From: Lysobacteraceae bacterium CU05-9
GTDB taxonomy: Bacteria > Pseudomonadota > Gammaproteobacteria > Xanthomonadales > Xanthomonadaceae
Reading direction: 5' to 3'
Assembly (NCBI GenBank): GCA_007556525.1
Contig: SWJS01000001.1
Location: 216,346 to 280,345, forward strand
DNA: 64,000 nt
Shown: positions 14,979-20,525 of the stretch, one piece after another
Layout: the number at the start of each line of letters is the position of its first letter
Position numbering within the stretch: the first letter of the stretch is position 1
Translations under genes and position numbers: made by a program
The notes under the pieces: generated by a model
The model's input: the letters and a program-made list of their open reading frames with translations, nothing else
Databases searched by the model: none
Told to the model about the DNA's origin: nothing

Positions 14979-17231
14979 TCAAGAGGCTAGGGAGAGACCG
15001 TCGACTTTTTGCCAGCCACGCGGCAGCAGACCACCACGCGTGGCGCGACGACCAATGTACGACTGCAAATCCGACCACGACAACGTCATCACCCGCGCGC
15101 CAGAATGCACCAGCAACTTGGAAGCGCCAGAAGATAACGCCGCCACCGCGACGACTTGCTCCGTACCCAACTTCGCCTTCGGAATCTCGATCAGCTTATT
15201 GCCCTTGCCCTTATCCAACGCAGGCACTTCGGACAGCGGATACACCAACAAGTGACCGGCGGACGTCACGACGGCGACATGATCCGCCGAACCGACGACA
15301 AACGGCGACAAAACACGCGCCTGCGGAGTCAGATTCAACAGGCCCTTGCCGGCTTTTTGGCGGGTCAACAGATTGTCGAACGAAGTCACGAAGCCGTAGC
15401 CGTGCGAGGTCGCCAACAACAACGACGTCGATGAATCACCAGCAGCCATCGCGACAAACGACGCGCCCGATGAAGGAGAGAACCGGCCCGTCAACGGCTC
15501 ACCGTTACCGCGTGCGGAAGGCAGCGTGTGCACGGACGTCGAGAACGAACGACCGGTCGAATCGATGAATGCGACTTGCTGATTCGAACGAGAATTTACC
15601 GTCGCCAACAACTTGTCACCATCGCGATACGACATCGTCTCGGCAGACACGTCGTGACCCTTCGCGGCACGCACCCAACCCTTCTCCGACAAAATCACCG
15701 TCATCGCCTCCGACGGCGTCAACTCCGTTTCCGACAATGCCACTGCAGCGCCGCGAGAGACCAACGGAGAACGACGCGCATCGCCGTACTTCTTCGCATC
15801 CGCGAGCAACTCGGATTTGATCAACTTCTTCAACTTCGCCTTGGAATCCAGAGTCGAACGCAGACCGTCCAATTCTTTTTCCAACGAATCCAACTCACCG
15901 CGGATTTTCATTTCTTCCAAGCGAGCCAACTGACGCAGCTTCGTTTCGAGAATGTACTCGGCTTGCGTTTCCGTCAGATCGAAGCGAGCGATCAAGGCGG
16001 GTTTTGGCTCGTCTTCGGTGCGGATAATGCGGATGACTTCATCGAGATTGAGGAACGCGATCAGCAAACCATCGAGCAAATGCAGACGGCGCTCGATGCG
16101 CTCGATGCGATGATTGATCCGGCGAATGACGGTGTTCGTGCGGAACGACAACCACTCCGTGAGAAACACCGCCAGCGACTTCACCTGCGGACGACCATCG
16201 AGACCGATGACGTTGAGGTTGACGCGGAAACTTTTCTCAAGGTCTGTTGTCGCAAAAAGATGCCCCATCAACTGATCCACATCCACTCGATTCGAGCGGG
16301 CGATCAACACGATGCGCGTTGGGTTCTCATGATCCGATTCATCGCGGACGTCTTCGAGCCAAGGCAACTTCTTCGCACGCATTTGATTCGCGATTTGCTC
16401 AATCACCTTGCTCGGCGAAACCTGATAGGGCAGAGCGGTGATGACGATGTTTTCCTTCTCGCGGGAGTAAACCGCACGCGCACGCACCGAACCGTTGCCG
16501 GTCTCATACATGCTCACCAAATCCGCACGCGGCGTAATGATCTCGGCTTCCGTCGGATAATCCGGCCCCTTGATGTGCTCGCACAGCTCGGCGGTCGTGG
16601 CTTTGGGCTCGTCGATCAAATGGATGCATGCATCGACGACTTCATTGAGATTGTGCGGCGGAAAATCCGTCGCCATCCCCACCGCAATCCCCGTCGTGCC
16701 ATTCAACAACAGGTGCGGCAGACGCGCCGGCAACCACGTCGGCTCCTCTAACGTCCCATCAAAATTCGCATCCCAATCCACCGTTCCCTGGCCCAGTTCA
16801 CCGAGCAGGACTTCGGCGATGGGGGTCATTTTGGACTCTGTATAACGCATCGCGGCGAACGACTTCGGATCATCACTCGACCCAAAATTCCCCTGACCAT
16901 CAATCAGCGGATACCGATAGCTAAACGGTTGCGCCATCAAAACCATCGCTTCATAACACGCGCTATCACCATGCGGGTGGAATTTACCGATGACGTCACC
17001 GACGGTACGCGCGGATTTCTTCGGTTTCGCGGCGGCGTTCAACCCCAGCTCGCTCATGGAATAAATGATGCGGCGTTGCACCGGCTTCAACCCGTCACCA
17101 ATGAACGGCAGCGCGCGGTCAAGCACCACGTACATCGAGTAGTCGAGGTAGGCCTTTTCGGCGTATTCCTTCAGCGGAATCTGTTCAAAACCATGAAAAG
17201 CGGGTCGTACTGGCGCAGGTGTATCGGACAT
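14979..17231 (-). CDS. parC: DNA topoisomerase IV subunit A
   Basis: A 750-residue type IIA topoisomerase subunit that decatenates daughter chromosomes with ParE. The breakage-reunion domain starts [20 protein letters not shown], carries [11 protein letters not shown], the quinolone-region motif [13 protein letters not shown] with unchanged Ser and Glu, and the active-site Tyr in AAMRYTES. The C-terminal DNA-wrapping domain (about 500-750) has ParC-type blades. The length fits ParC rather than GyrA, whose C-terminal domain is longer. It is monocistronic as far as seen; parE is not in the window. Confidence 0.96.
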
Positions 17232-17458
17232 CGTGTTCTTGCGGTTGGGTTAACCATTCATTCTAACGCGTGGCGCGGGGCACGCGGGTAGCGCGCGGTG
17301 GCGATGTTGATTTTGGGCGCTTTGCAAAAAGTTGCGCCACATGCAACATTTCGCAAAACGCCGATTTTGAACAACACCACCGCCGAACACTTCAACGGCG
17401 GCACCAGCCGTGCGGCGCGACGCTCTGCGTCAGCCGCGCGAGCGGTATACTGCACACC

Positions 17459-17725
17459 ATGATTGATTTGCATTGCCACATCCTGCCGGGCATCGACGAT
17501 GGCGCCGAAGACAAAGCGATGGCGCTGGAGATGGCGCGGATCGCCGCGCAGGATGGCATCACCACGATCGCCTGCACGCCGCACATCTATCCGGGCATGT
17601 ATGAGAATGACGCGCAGGGCATCCGCAACGCGATAAGCAGCTTCCAGCAGATCCTGGACGACGAGGGGATCGCGATCAAGTTGGTGCAGGGCGCGGACGT
17701 GCACATGGTGCCGGGCCCCATGCGT
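17459..17725 (+). pseudogene. CpsB/CapC-type PHP-domain phosphatase, 3'-truncated remnant
   Basis: Begins MIDLHCHILPGIDDGAEDKA, then follows the CpsB/CapC polymerase-and-histidinol-phosphatase (PHP) family through ACTPHIYPGMYEN to GADVHMVPG near 17720. These Mn-dependent tyrosine phosphatases control capsule export kinases and are about 240-260 residues long; here homology stops after about 88 residues. The frame then continues to a stop at 17836 through the reverse complement of an unrelated DUF2569 gene. A TATACT box ends 7 bases before ATG 17459. The remnant retains the first metal ligands but not the C-terminal ones, so it is almost certainly inactive. Confidence 0.8.
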
Positions 17726-17995
17726 AGCGACCGCGATTTTGGGCGAGATGGGTTTGTGGTGGAATGCAAGCATCAGCCCCGCGGCGATGCGTATGAGTGT
17801 GTCGACTGCGGCGCTAGTGTATACCGCTTTTTGTAGTTGCTGCCACTCCGGCAAATCCTTCAGATTCGGTGCATTCGCCAACTCGGCCTGCATCTGGCCA
17901 AATTCGCTGAGCGTCAATAACGGGTTGAACACAGTCAGCCCCAAAATCAGCAGCAACAACCACCCACCCACGCCTTTCAATTCCTTGCCTGCCAT
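17725..17995 (-). pseudogene. DUF2569-type membrane protein, 3'-truncated remnant
   Basis: On the minus strand MAGKELKGVGGWLLLLILGL starts a protein with a DUF2569-like first membrane segment and loop (GGWLLLL, NPLLTL) and a second hydrophobic segment ending KPISPKIAVAT near 17727. A GGGGAA ribosome-binding site lies before ATG 17995. Beyond about residue 90 the reading frame runs on to 17258 as antisense of the PHP gene and parC promoter region, with no membrane character. The authentic 3' half is missing. A chimeric 245-residue product could in principle still be made. Confidence 0.7.
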
Positions 17996-18066
17996 TTGTT
18001 TCCCCTGGTTTATCGATCGAAACTTACAATGATTTCCATGAACTTCAGCGGATACCGTTGAACGTA

Positions 18067-18286
18067 CTACCAGCTTCGGCGACGGGGGTAGGGTTCGCAG
18101 GCGATGCCGTCGTTATCGGCGTCGAGTCCGCGGCGGTAGCCGGGTTGTCCGCGGCGGATGGGTGCGACTCCGGCGCGGCGTGCGTGGGCGCAGTTGTAGT
18201 AGTAGGTTTCGTTGGTCCGGCGCGGTTGATATCTCGGAGACACGCTCGGGTAGCTGTTGATCGTGCGATAGGTGGAGACGCCGGAA
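18067..18286 (-). pseudogene. Excalibur calcium-binding-domain protein, 5'-truncated remnant
   Basis: Translating the minus strand down to the stop at 18067 gives YYYNCAHARRAGVAPIRRG, then YRRGLDADNDGIACEPY, a complete Excalibur domain with its DxDxDGxxCE calcium-binding core. Upstream the frame is open to a stop near 18346 but contains no ATG, GTG or TTG, so the start and any signal peptide are gone. Intact relatives are small exported proteins. It lies 72 bp upstream of the DUF2569 remnant on the same strand. It was missed by start-codon-based gene finding. Confidence 0.75.
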
Positions 18287-18308
18287 TTGCCCTTGCGGTG
18301 GCAGTTCC

Positions 18309-18488
18309 GACGAGTACGATTGCCGCGGCAACAGCCAGTCCTTCATCGAAGGCCGCGAGGCATTCGTCGCCGCTCGCCTGGAGCTCGCCGAGGAGCAGGC
18401 GCGTGAGTCTGCGCTAGAGGAAGTCGAGGACTTGGACTTGTACGAGCGCGATTACGAAGATGAGATCAACGCCCGGCGTGGGTATTAG
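18309..18488 (+). pseudogene. Acidic helical protein, 5'-truncated remnant (family not recognised)
   Basis: The plus strand encodes DEYDCRGNSQSFIEGREAF, then a helix-rich acidic stretch (LELAEEQARESALEEVEDLD) ending INARRGY at a TAG (18486-18488). The frame has no start codon back to the stop at about 18258, and it begins on the opposite strand to, and back-to-back with, the Excalibur remnant, which also lacks its start. I do not recognise the family. Codon use is ordinary, so it looks like the tail of a once real gene. Confidence 0.55.
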
Positions 18489-18498
18489 GGAAATCGTA

Positions 18499-18606
18499 AT
18501 GACTGCGTGTAATGTGAGTGTGTCCGATGTAGCGAGTCACTGTTTGCACTGCGGCTATTCTTTTGACCGAGCACGTGCGAGACACGTGATTGGCTCGACA
18601 AAATAG
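18499..18606 (+). CDS. Possible 35-residue small protein upstream of hipBA
   Basis: ATG 18499 follows AGGGAAATCGTA, a plausible ribosome-binding site, and opens 35 codons ending at TAG 18604-18606. The product contains a single CxxC (HCLHCGYSFDRARARH) and basic residues. No family is recognised, and a random open frame of this length is common, so support is weak. It lies just upstream of the first hipB operator. Confidence 0.2.
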   Translation: MTACNVSVSDVASHCLHCGYSFDRARARHVIGSTK

Positions 18607-18630
18607 GGCATTCGGACTGCTGGAAGGAAC

Positions 18631-18754
18631 AAAATCCTTACAGTTGTAAGGATTTTGCTAGAAAACTAGGTTTAGTTGTATTAATCCTCACGAATGTGAG
18701 GATTTTGGGTGTAATCTAGATTAATTAACTAGAATCCTTACGAGCGTGCGGATT
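18631..18754 (+). promoter_or_regulatory. Three HipB-type operators with exact 50-bp spacing
   Basis: Three 22-bp inverted repeats of the form AATCCTYACN6GTRRGGATT start at 18633, 18683 and 18733. The first is perfect and extends to 26 bp (AAAATCCTTAC/GTAAGGATTTT). The second is AATCCTCAC/GTGAGGATT. The third is AATCCTTAC/GTGCGGATT with two changes, and it ends on the base before the hipB ATG. E. coli HipB recognises TATCC-N8-GGATA sites, so these are very probably autorepression operators with a longer spacer. The 50-bp phasing puts the sites on nearly the same DNA face. Confidence 0.8.
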
Positions 18755-19024
18755 ATGAAGATTAGATTGGATCATCCGTCAGAGATTGGCGTTGTTATAA
18801 AGTCGGCTAGAAAGCGACAGCGATTGCGACAGGATGATCTTGCAGGAATTGTCGGCGTCAGCGAGAATTTTTTGGGCAAGGTCGAAAATGGTGGTGAGAC
18901 CGTGCAGTGGGGAAAGCTGTTTCAGGTATTGCAAGGGCTCGGAGTCGAGGTTTGGCTCGACATGCCGGATACAACGATACAGACAGGTGGCGCAGATTCC
19001 AGTAGGGAGAGATCCGGGAAATGA
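18755..19024 (+). CDS. hipB: HipB-like HTH antitoxin
   Basis: An 89-residue protein with a helix-turn-helix of the XRE/Cro type: IGVVIKSARKRQRLRQDDLA followed by GIVGVSENFLGKVENG, about residues 8-50. HipB neutralises the HipA kinase and represses its own operon. ATG 18755 is preferred over GTG 18746 because relatives begin just before the HTH and the GTG lies inside operator 3; either way the start is covered by the operator, so bound repressor would block initiation directly. The stop overlaps the hipA start by ATGA, giving coupled synthesis of antitoxin before toxin. It lies in an accessory stretch next to tRNA-Leu. Confidence 0.88.
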   Translation: MKIRLDHPSEIGVVIKSARKRQRLRQDDLAGIVGVSENFLGKVENGGETVQWGKLFQVLQGLGVEVWLDMPDTTIQTGGADSSRERSGK

Positions 19025-20331
19025 GCTCTCGGATTTTGCACGCGTGGATAAACGGTCAGCACGTCGGGACTCTGACGGAGCCGAATGGGATTTGGCAATT
19101 TGAATACAGTCCCAGCTGGGTCACTTCACCTGAGGCTTACGCGCTAAGCCCGTACTTGCCACTCGAATCCTCTCCGCTGTTGGATAGCGGCTCGATCCGG
19201 AACGTTCAATGGTATTTCGATAATCTGCTGCCTGAGGAGGGACAGAGAAAGCTCCTGGCATCGGATGTCGAAATTGACCATGCGGATGCATTCGGTTTAC
19301 TGGCCGCATATGGCGCAGAATCGACTGGGTCGTTGATTCTGACACGGAATGATGAGGTGCCGAAATCGCAATGGGAGCTCATCGAACTTCCGGATGGGGA
19401 CTTGCAGAAGCGAATTGAACGAATGCCGCAGTTGCCATTAACCCATGGCGCGCCGAAAAGAATGTCACTTGCAGGGGCCCAGCACAAATTGGCAGTGGTT
19501 CTTGACGGTGAAAAAATATACGAGCCAATCGGATCAACGCCATCCACACACATTTTGAAACCGAATCATCACGATGGTGACTATCCGCAATCGGTGATCA
19601 ATGAGTGGTTTGTGATGCGACTGGCGAGGGAGTTGGGTCTTTCGGTGCCTAATGTTGAACGCCGGTACGTTCCTTCTCCTGTTTACATCATTGAGCGATT
19701 CGACCGTGTCAATTCAGACGCAGGTTGGCAACGTGTGCACGCGATTGACGGTTGTCAATTGTTGGGGTTGGATCGTTTGTTCAAGTATTCGCAAGGAAGC
19801 GTCGGACGATTGGTTGAGCTGTCCGGTGCAACGCGAAGTCTTGCGGCCTCACGAGTGGAATTCTTCAAGTGGCTAACGTTCAACGTGCTGGTCGGTAATG
19901 GCGATGCTCATTTGAAGAATCTGAGCTTCGTCGTCTCGAGTCGCGGAATGGAGGTAGCGCCTGCATACGACCTGCTGAGTACAGAGGTTTATTCGACCAA
20001 GGCCTTTGACAAGGATGGCTGGCCCCGCCGTTCTGAACTTGCATGGCCATTGTTGGAGGCGCGTCGCTTCGTCGATGTTGATCGCAACACATTGCTGCGA
20101 GCGGGCGAACGTCTTAATATTCCTGCTGCCACCGCCAGACGCATCATGGACAAAATGATCTCGGAAATTCTTCCAGCTGCTTCCCGTTTGGCAGATCTAT
20201 TCGAGTCCGAAAATATTTCACGGTGGCACGGTCGTTCGGATTTGCAGTTGACCTTCCTGGCCGAGCGTCGCTGTATCGACGCCATCCGCCACGTCATCAT
20301 CCGCGACATGGTGCAGAAGTTGTCGGGTTGA
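19021..20331 (+). CDS. hipA: HipA-like serine/threonine kinase toxin
   Basis: A 436-residue type II toxin. The N-terminal subdomain has WINGQHVGTL and the DNLLPEEGQRK motif typical of HipA. The kinase part carries LAGAQHKLAVVLDG, HILKPNHHDGDYP, the couple-domain segment VYIIERFDR, the catalytic loop VGNGDAHLKNLSF with the conserved Asp and Asn, and the metal-binding APAYDLLST. Known HipA proteins phosphorylate aminoacyl-tRNA synthetases such as GltX and induce dormancy; the target here is inferred only. All key residues are present, so the toxin should be active. It is coupled to hipB by ATGA and followed by the tRNA-Leu terminator on the other strand. Confidence 0.92.
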   Translation: MSSRILHAWINGQHVGTLTEPNGIWQFEYSPSWVTSPEAYALSPYLPLESSPLLDSGSIRNVQWYFDNLLPEEGQRKLLASDVEIDHADAFGLLAAYGAESTGSLILTRNDEVPKSQWELIELPDGDLQKRIERMPQLPLTHGAPKRMSLAGAQHKLAVVLDGEKIYEPIGSTPSTHILKPNHHDGDYPQSVINEWFVMRLARELGLSVPNVERRYVPSPVYIIERFDRVNSDAGWQRVHAIDGCQLLGLDRLFKYSQGSVGRLVELSGATRSLAASRVEFFKWLTFNVLVGNGDAHLKNLSFVVSSRGMEVAPAYDLLSTEVYSTKAFDKDGWPRRSELAWPLLEARRFVDVDRNTLLRAGERLNIPAATARRIMDKMISEILPAASRLADLFESENISRWHGRSDLQLTFLAERRCIDAIRHVIIRDMVQKLSG

Positions 20332-20402
20332 GGCTCGCGAATTCTCGTTCGAATCATCAATTCGAGATAAATTGAAACAATAGCAATTTGATCGGAAGAA
20401 AC

Positions 20403-20433
20403 AAAAAACCCGCCTGATTTCTCAAACGGGTTT
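20403..20433 (-). terminator. Terminator of tRNA-Leu(CAG)
   Basis: On the minus strand AAACCCG and CGGGTTT form a 7-bp stem around a 14-base loop, followed by TTT. It lies 7 bases past the tRNA CCA end. Confidence 0.75.
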
Positions 20434-20440
20434 CGCAATT

Positions 20441-20525
<85 letters not shown>

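Follow-up and report, generated by a model that had tools for sequence, protein, structure and literature searches.

Between parC and an intact hipBA toxin-antitoxin operon, the genome of a small-genome relative of Lysobacter carries the remains of four accessory genes that are unrelated to one another and have each lost one end. We consider it probable (roughly 80%) that this is a decayed accessory-gene patch trimmed by two illegitimate deletions, the deletions being events that we infer from their products. The window analyzed is a stretch of 64,000 nucleotides, and all coordinates refer to it. The left border of the patch is the intact parC ORF (DNA topoisomerase IV subunit A, named by resemblance; 14979..17231, minus strand), whose best named matches, at 76-78% identity, are from Lysobacter, Pseudoxanthomonas and Luteimonas and place the organism with the Xanthomonadaceae/Lysobacteraceae. 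Its right border is the apparently intact hipBA operon (18749..20331, plus strand), followed by tRNA-Leu(CAG) (20441..20525, minus strand) and an RNase R-like gene, rnr, also named by resemblance (from about 20679, plus strand). All genomes compared belong to genera other than the host's own, so the sets consist of non-congeneric relatives. The host assembly comprises 2.35 Mb in 15 contigs, compared with 2.6-5.0 Mb in 35 other family members and 2.2 Mb in one further member.

The first fragment (17459..17718, plus strand) is the 5' part of a CpsB/CapC-type PHP phosphatase gene, with about 86 of some 260 codons, a preserved start codon and no internal stop. The Pfam profile CpsB_CapC (PF19567) matches at 79.1 bits over positions 1-83 of 234, the N-terminal PHP motif region; positions 84-234 are absent from the fragment and were not found elsewhere in the host genome with an intact PHP homologue as query. 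Homologues were detected in 11 of 59 relatives besides the host, including one scrap (G023) and one marginal match (G037, E 1.5e-4), and the intact ones have about 260 codons. When the end of the fragment was mapped base by base against six intact homologues in blocks of 15 bases, mostly 6-15 bases per block were common up to codon 85 (lowest 2), dropping to 5-7 in the block after that and to 1-6 further on. Block identity therefore collapses after about codon 86, which places the end of PHP homology near 17714-17718. The reading frame itself continues to 17836 as a 125-codon ORF whose extension is antisense to the neighboring DUF2569 gene.

That neighbor (17726..17995, minus strand) is a 5' fragment of a DUF2569 membrane-protein gene, about 90 codons long, with its start codon kept and its 3' part lost. 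The DUF2569 profile (PF10754) scores 25.7 bits on the fused ORF, just below the cut-off of 26.5, and 26.5 bits in the genome search, exactly at that cut-off. The domain is incomplete (profile positions 2-87 of 143), and its truncation is judged by comparison with this profile rather than with an intact homologue. On the minus strand the frame is open across the entire PHP antisense, giving the appearance of a 245-codon ORF. Searching the host genome with the profile returned the fragment and no second copy. Matches were limited to this genome in both sets searched (1/60 and 1/297 genomes), so the gene is rare in the family and may have been acquired.

The third fragment (18067..18306, minus strand) is the 3' part of an Excalibur-domain protein gene, in which the domain (PF05901) is complete (positions 1-36 of 36, 60.9 bits) and its match starts at open-frame residue 13, about 18304-18306. 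Intact Excalibur proteins from three relatives have a signal-like N-terminus, then a His/Cys-containing part and then the domain; the N-terminal signal-peptide half present in all three is missing from the fragment. An intact Excalibur protein used as query against the host genome found no copy beyond the fragment. We rejected an apparent extension of the match, from a whole-genome search, past the second junction to about 18357 via a stop: it was no better than shuffled sequence, its score being reached by 38 to 65% of 500 shuffles with three homologues.

The fourth fragment (18306..18488, plus strand) preserves about 60 codons from the 3' end of a gene whose acidic product, probably exported and lipoprotein-like, matches no Pfam and no NCBIfam family. 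The last ~60 residues encoded here align with the C-terminus of ORFs of about 200 codons in three other genera. Matches outside the host number five among 297 genomes; two are marginal, one at E 0.003 and interrupted by a TGA, the other at E 0.009. Judging from their translations, the intact homologues look like lipoproteins, with a signal-like stretch containing a cysteine. Homology sets in at about 18307 and becomes strong at 18321; a candidate continuation upstream of 18306 was discarded, because its score of 22 falls short of the 26 that marks the top tenth of 200 shuffles. A cysteine kept in the four homologues that were read (L121, L122, L123 and L125) is replaced by Arg here, which suggests relaxed selection. 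With most of an intact protein (132 residues) as query, the host genome yielded the fragment only.

Both junctions are sharp, and the fragments abut almost without spacer. Junction 1 (17714..17726) separates the end of PHP homology from the start of DUF2569 homology, and junction 2 (18304..18320) separates the end of Excalibur homology (about 18305) from the start of acidic-protein homology (about 18307). A preliminary description of this DNA had proposed that PHP (plus strand) and DUF2569 (minus strand) both lose their 3' parts at about 17725, and that Excalibur (minus strand) and the acidic gene (plus strand), both 5'-truncated, meet back-to-back near 18290. Pfam profiles and comparison with intact relatives bear out the first truncation pair while moving its junction to about 17714-17726; the second pair likewise stands, with the junction relocated to about 18304-18307 (at most 18320).

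The first pair of genes is convergent and has lost both 3' ends; the second is divergent and has lost both 5' ends. This arrangement is exactly what two simple deletions would produce. The missing parts were not found elsewhere in the genome, so partial duplication of resident genes does not account for the fragments. Accessory genes would have been gained, presumably by horizontal transfer, at a variable site between parC, tRNA-Leu and rnr. One deletion would then have had its breakpoints within the PHP gene and the convergent DUF2569 gene, removing both 3' ends; the other, with breakpoints within the Excalibur gene and the divergent acidic-protein gene, would have removed both 5' ends. The two would have been separate, illegitimate events relying on short or no homology and proceeding without Ku-type end joining. 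Junctions 1 and 2 share no common repeat of 7 bases. No Ku gene was found in this genome; Ku-type end joining is thus not indicated, and we rejected it as the junction mechanism. No stop codons occur inside the four remnants, which span about 310 codons altogether, so the truncation may be recent. The remaining fragments are most likely non-functional. As to origin, the preliminary description had offered a central piece pasted in by recombination or nested deletions: deletion fits the orientations of the pairs and the lack of second copies, nesting is superfluous where two independent deletions suffice, and pasting needs more steps.

The surrounding site is one whose content changes among relatives. 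Homologues of parC share 60-78% identity across 80 loci, in 12 of which rnr is also in reach, and tRNA-Leu(CAG) lies between the two genes in all 12. The parC-rnr interval in these 12 relatives measures about 0.4 to 7.8 kb (from match edges) and differs in gene content. Among 20 of the 28 interval ORFs, those given to Pfam, five have matches, at three different loci: a citrate transporter, a set comprising MFS, outer-membrane efflux and AraC genes, and an AAA-TPR protein. Being so variable in length and content, the interval is a site where genes come and go. At none of the 80 parC loci did tblastn (E 1e-4) find hipBA or any of the four remnant genes; a conserved fused locus, which would have undermined the preliminary description, was therefore not encountered. 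Intact versions of the PHP, Excalibur and acidic genes, which that description had suggested seeking in relatives, do exist in other genera of the family at unrelated places; none was found for DUF2569. At E 0.01, none of the homologue neighborhoods examined (L114-L119, L126-L133) contained more than one of the four genes, so the four do not derive from any cluster seen here. They were never met together and may have come in on more than one island. A tRNA-derived attachment repeat, such as a tRNA-targeted integrative island would leave beside its cargo, was looked for and not found: tRNA-Leu and the sequence 17000-20440 share at most 10 consecutive bases, as shuffled sequences do. A plasmid or phage source of the remnants was rejected: a 1.5-kb region gave two short Gordonia plasmid matches (~110 bases, at the Excalibur domain) and no phage match, and the DUF2569 protein had no match among plasmids. 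Defence-system models had no match on the four remnants and weak ones on HipB and HipA only. The orientation of tRNA-Leu(CAG) relative to parC varies among relatives (L036-L055), and the tRNA gene is doubled in some genera (L046, L052 and L055); it seems to have been flipped or duplicated itself.

An alternative is that a foreign piece of 580 bases, containing DUF2569 and Excalibur, was inserted illegitimately between the PHP and acidic genes, which were cut beforehand or by the insertion. DUF2569 occurs in no other sampled genome, and its G+C (0.552) is below that of its PHP and Excalibur neighbors (0.623 and 0.660). However, the Excalibur fragment, also part of that piece, exceeds the other three remnants in G+C and has relatives within the family. 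The PHP and acidic fragments are moreover not halves of one gene, so that insertion alone leaves their truncations unexplained; more events would be required, in a genome with no Ku gene. We regard such an insertion as unlikely. An assembly chimera of unrelated, misjoined pieces is more doubtful still. Four unrelated fragments inside 1 kb could raise that suspicion, but the lost halves are not found in an assembly with an estimated completeness of 99.97%, and their absence makes a swap misassembly unlikely. A 1601-base region matches only itself at full length, its four other matches being 28-60 bases long and away from the junctions. The stretch also lies ~234 kb from the contig start, between the conserved neighbors parC and tRNA-Leu/rnr.

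That the truncated ORFs still serve some purpose as expressed genes, for example the 125-codon ORF that runs from PHP into DUF2569 antisense, is very improbable. Their frames are open, and PHP and DUF2569 keep their start codons, but at this G+C antisense frames often stay open. The PHP fragment lacks about two thirds of its domain, the acidic protein has lost a conserved cysteine, and the fusion was not seen conserved. It is equally improbable that deletion fusion has turned this ORF, or the Excalibur ORF without its leader, into a new expressed gene.

The proposed decay of accessory genes by two deletions places the patch among familiar phenomena. Gene gain-and-loss sites next to tRNA genes are a known type of site, and this one is alike in its conserved border genes and tRNA-Leu, with cargo that differs per genus; here, however, no attachment repeat was seen. 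Among bacterial pseudogenes, truncated leftovers of transferred genes are a recognized class (PMC522871). Such failed-transfer pseudogenes of prokaryotes are alike in being truncated accessory genes without a functional copy at a variable site; here the four fragments abut, which is neat yet the same process. The families CpsB/CapC (PF19567), DUF2569 (PF10754) and Excalibur (PF05901) are each recognized in one fragment, and in each case the gene is truncated. The remnant patch is ordinary genome decay and alters no general view. It offers a tidy case of how, in a lineage with a small genome, accessory genes at a variable site are whittled down to fragments that abut, and it cautions against annotating short ORFs here as PHP, DUF2569, Excalibur or new proteins.

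Several smaller observations concern the neighboring sequence and the relatives. The PHP scrap in G023, another family member, encodes 16-17 residues (L114:9887-9934) and adjoins an ORF that, read from its translation, is an apparent capsule-type nucleotide-sugar dehydrogenase. No parC match was found on the 13.6-kb G023 stretch that carries it. Given this scrap, the PHP phosphatase gene may have been lost repeatedly. Between parC and the PHP fragment, a stem-loop-like sequence (17320-17368) is a dispersed REP-like repeat, with three related sequences on the host's contig C15. Three near-identical 22-base palindromes (AATCC...GGATT; 18633-18654, 18683-18704 and 18733-18754) follow one another at intervals of exactly 50 bases where G+C is low (0.43), just upstream of the hipB frame and overlapping its start; they are probable operators for HipB in the intact hipBA operon.
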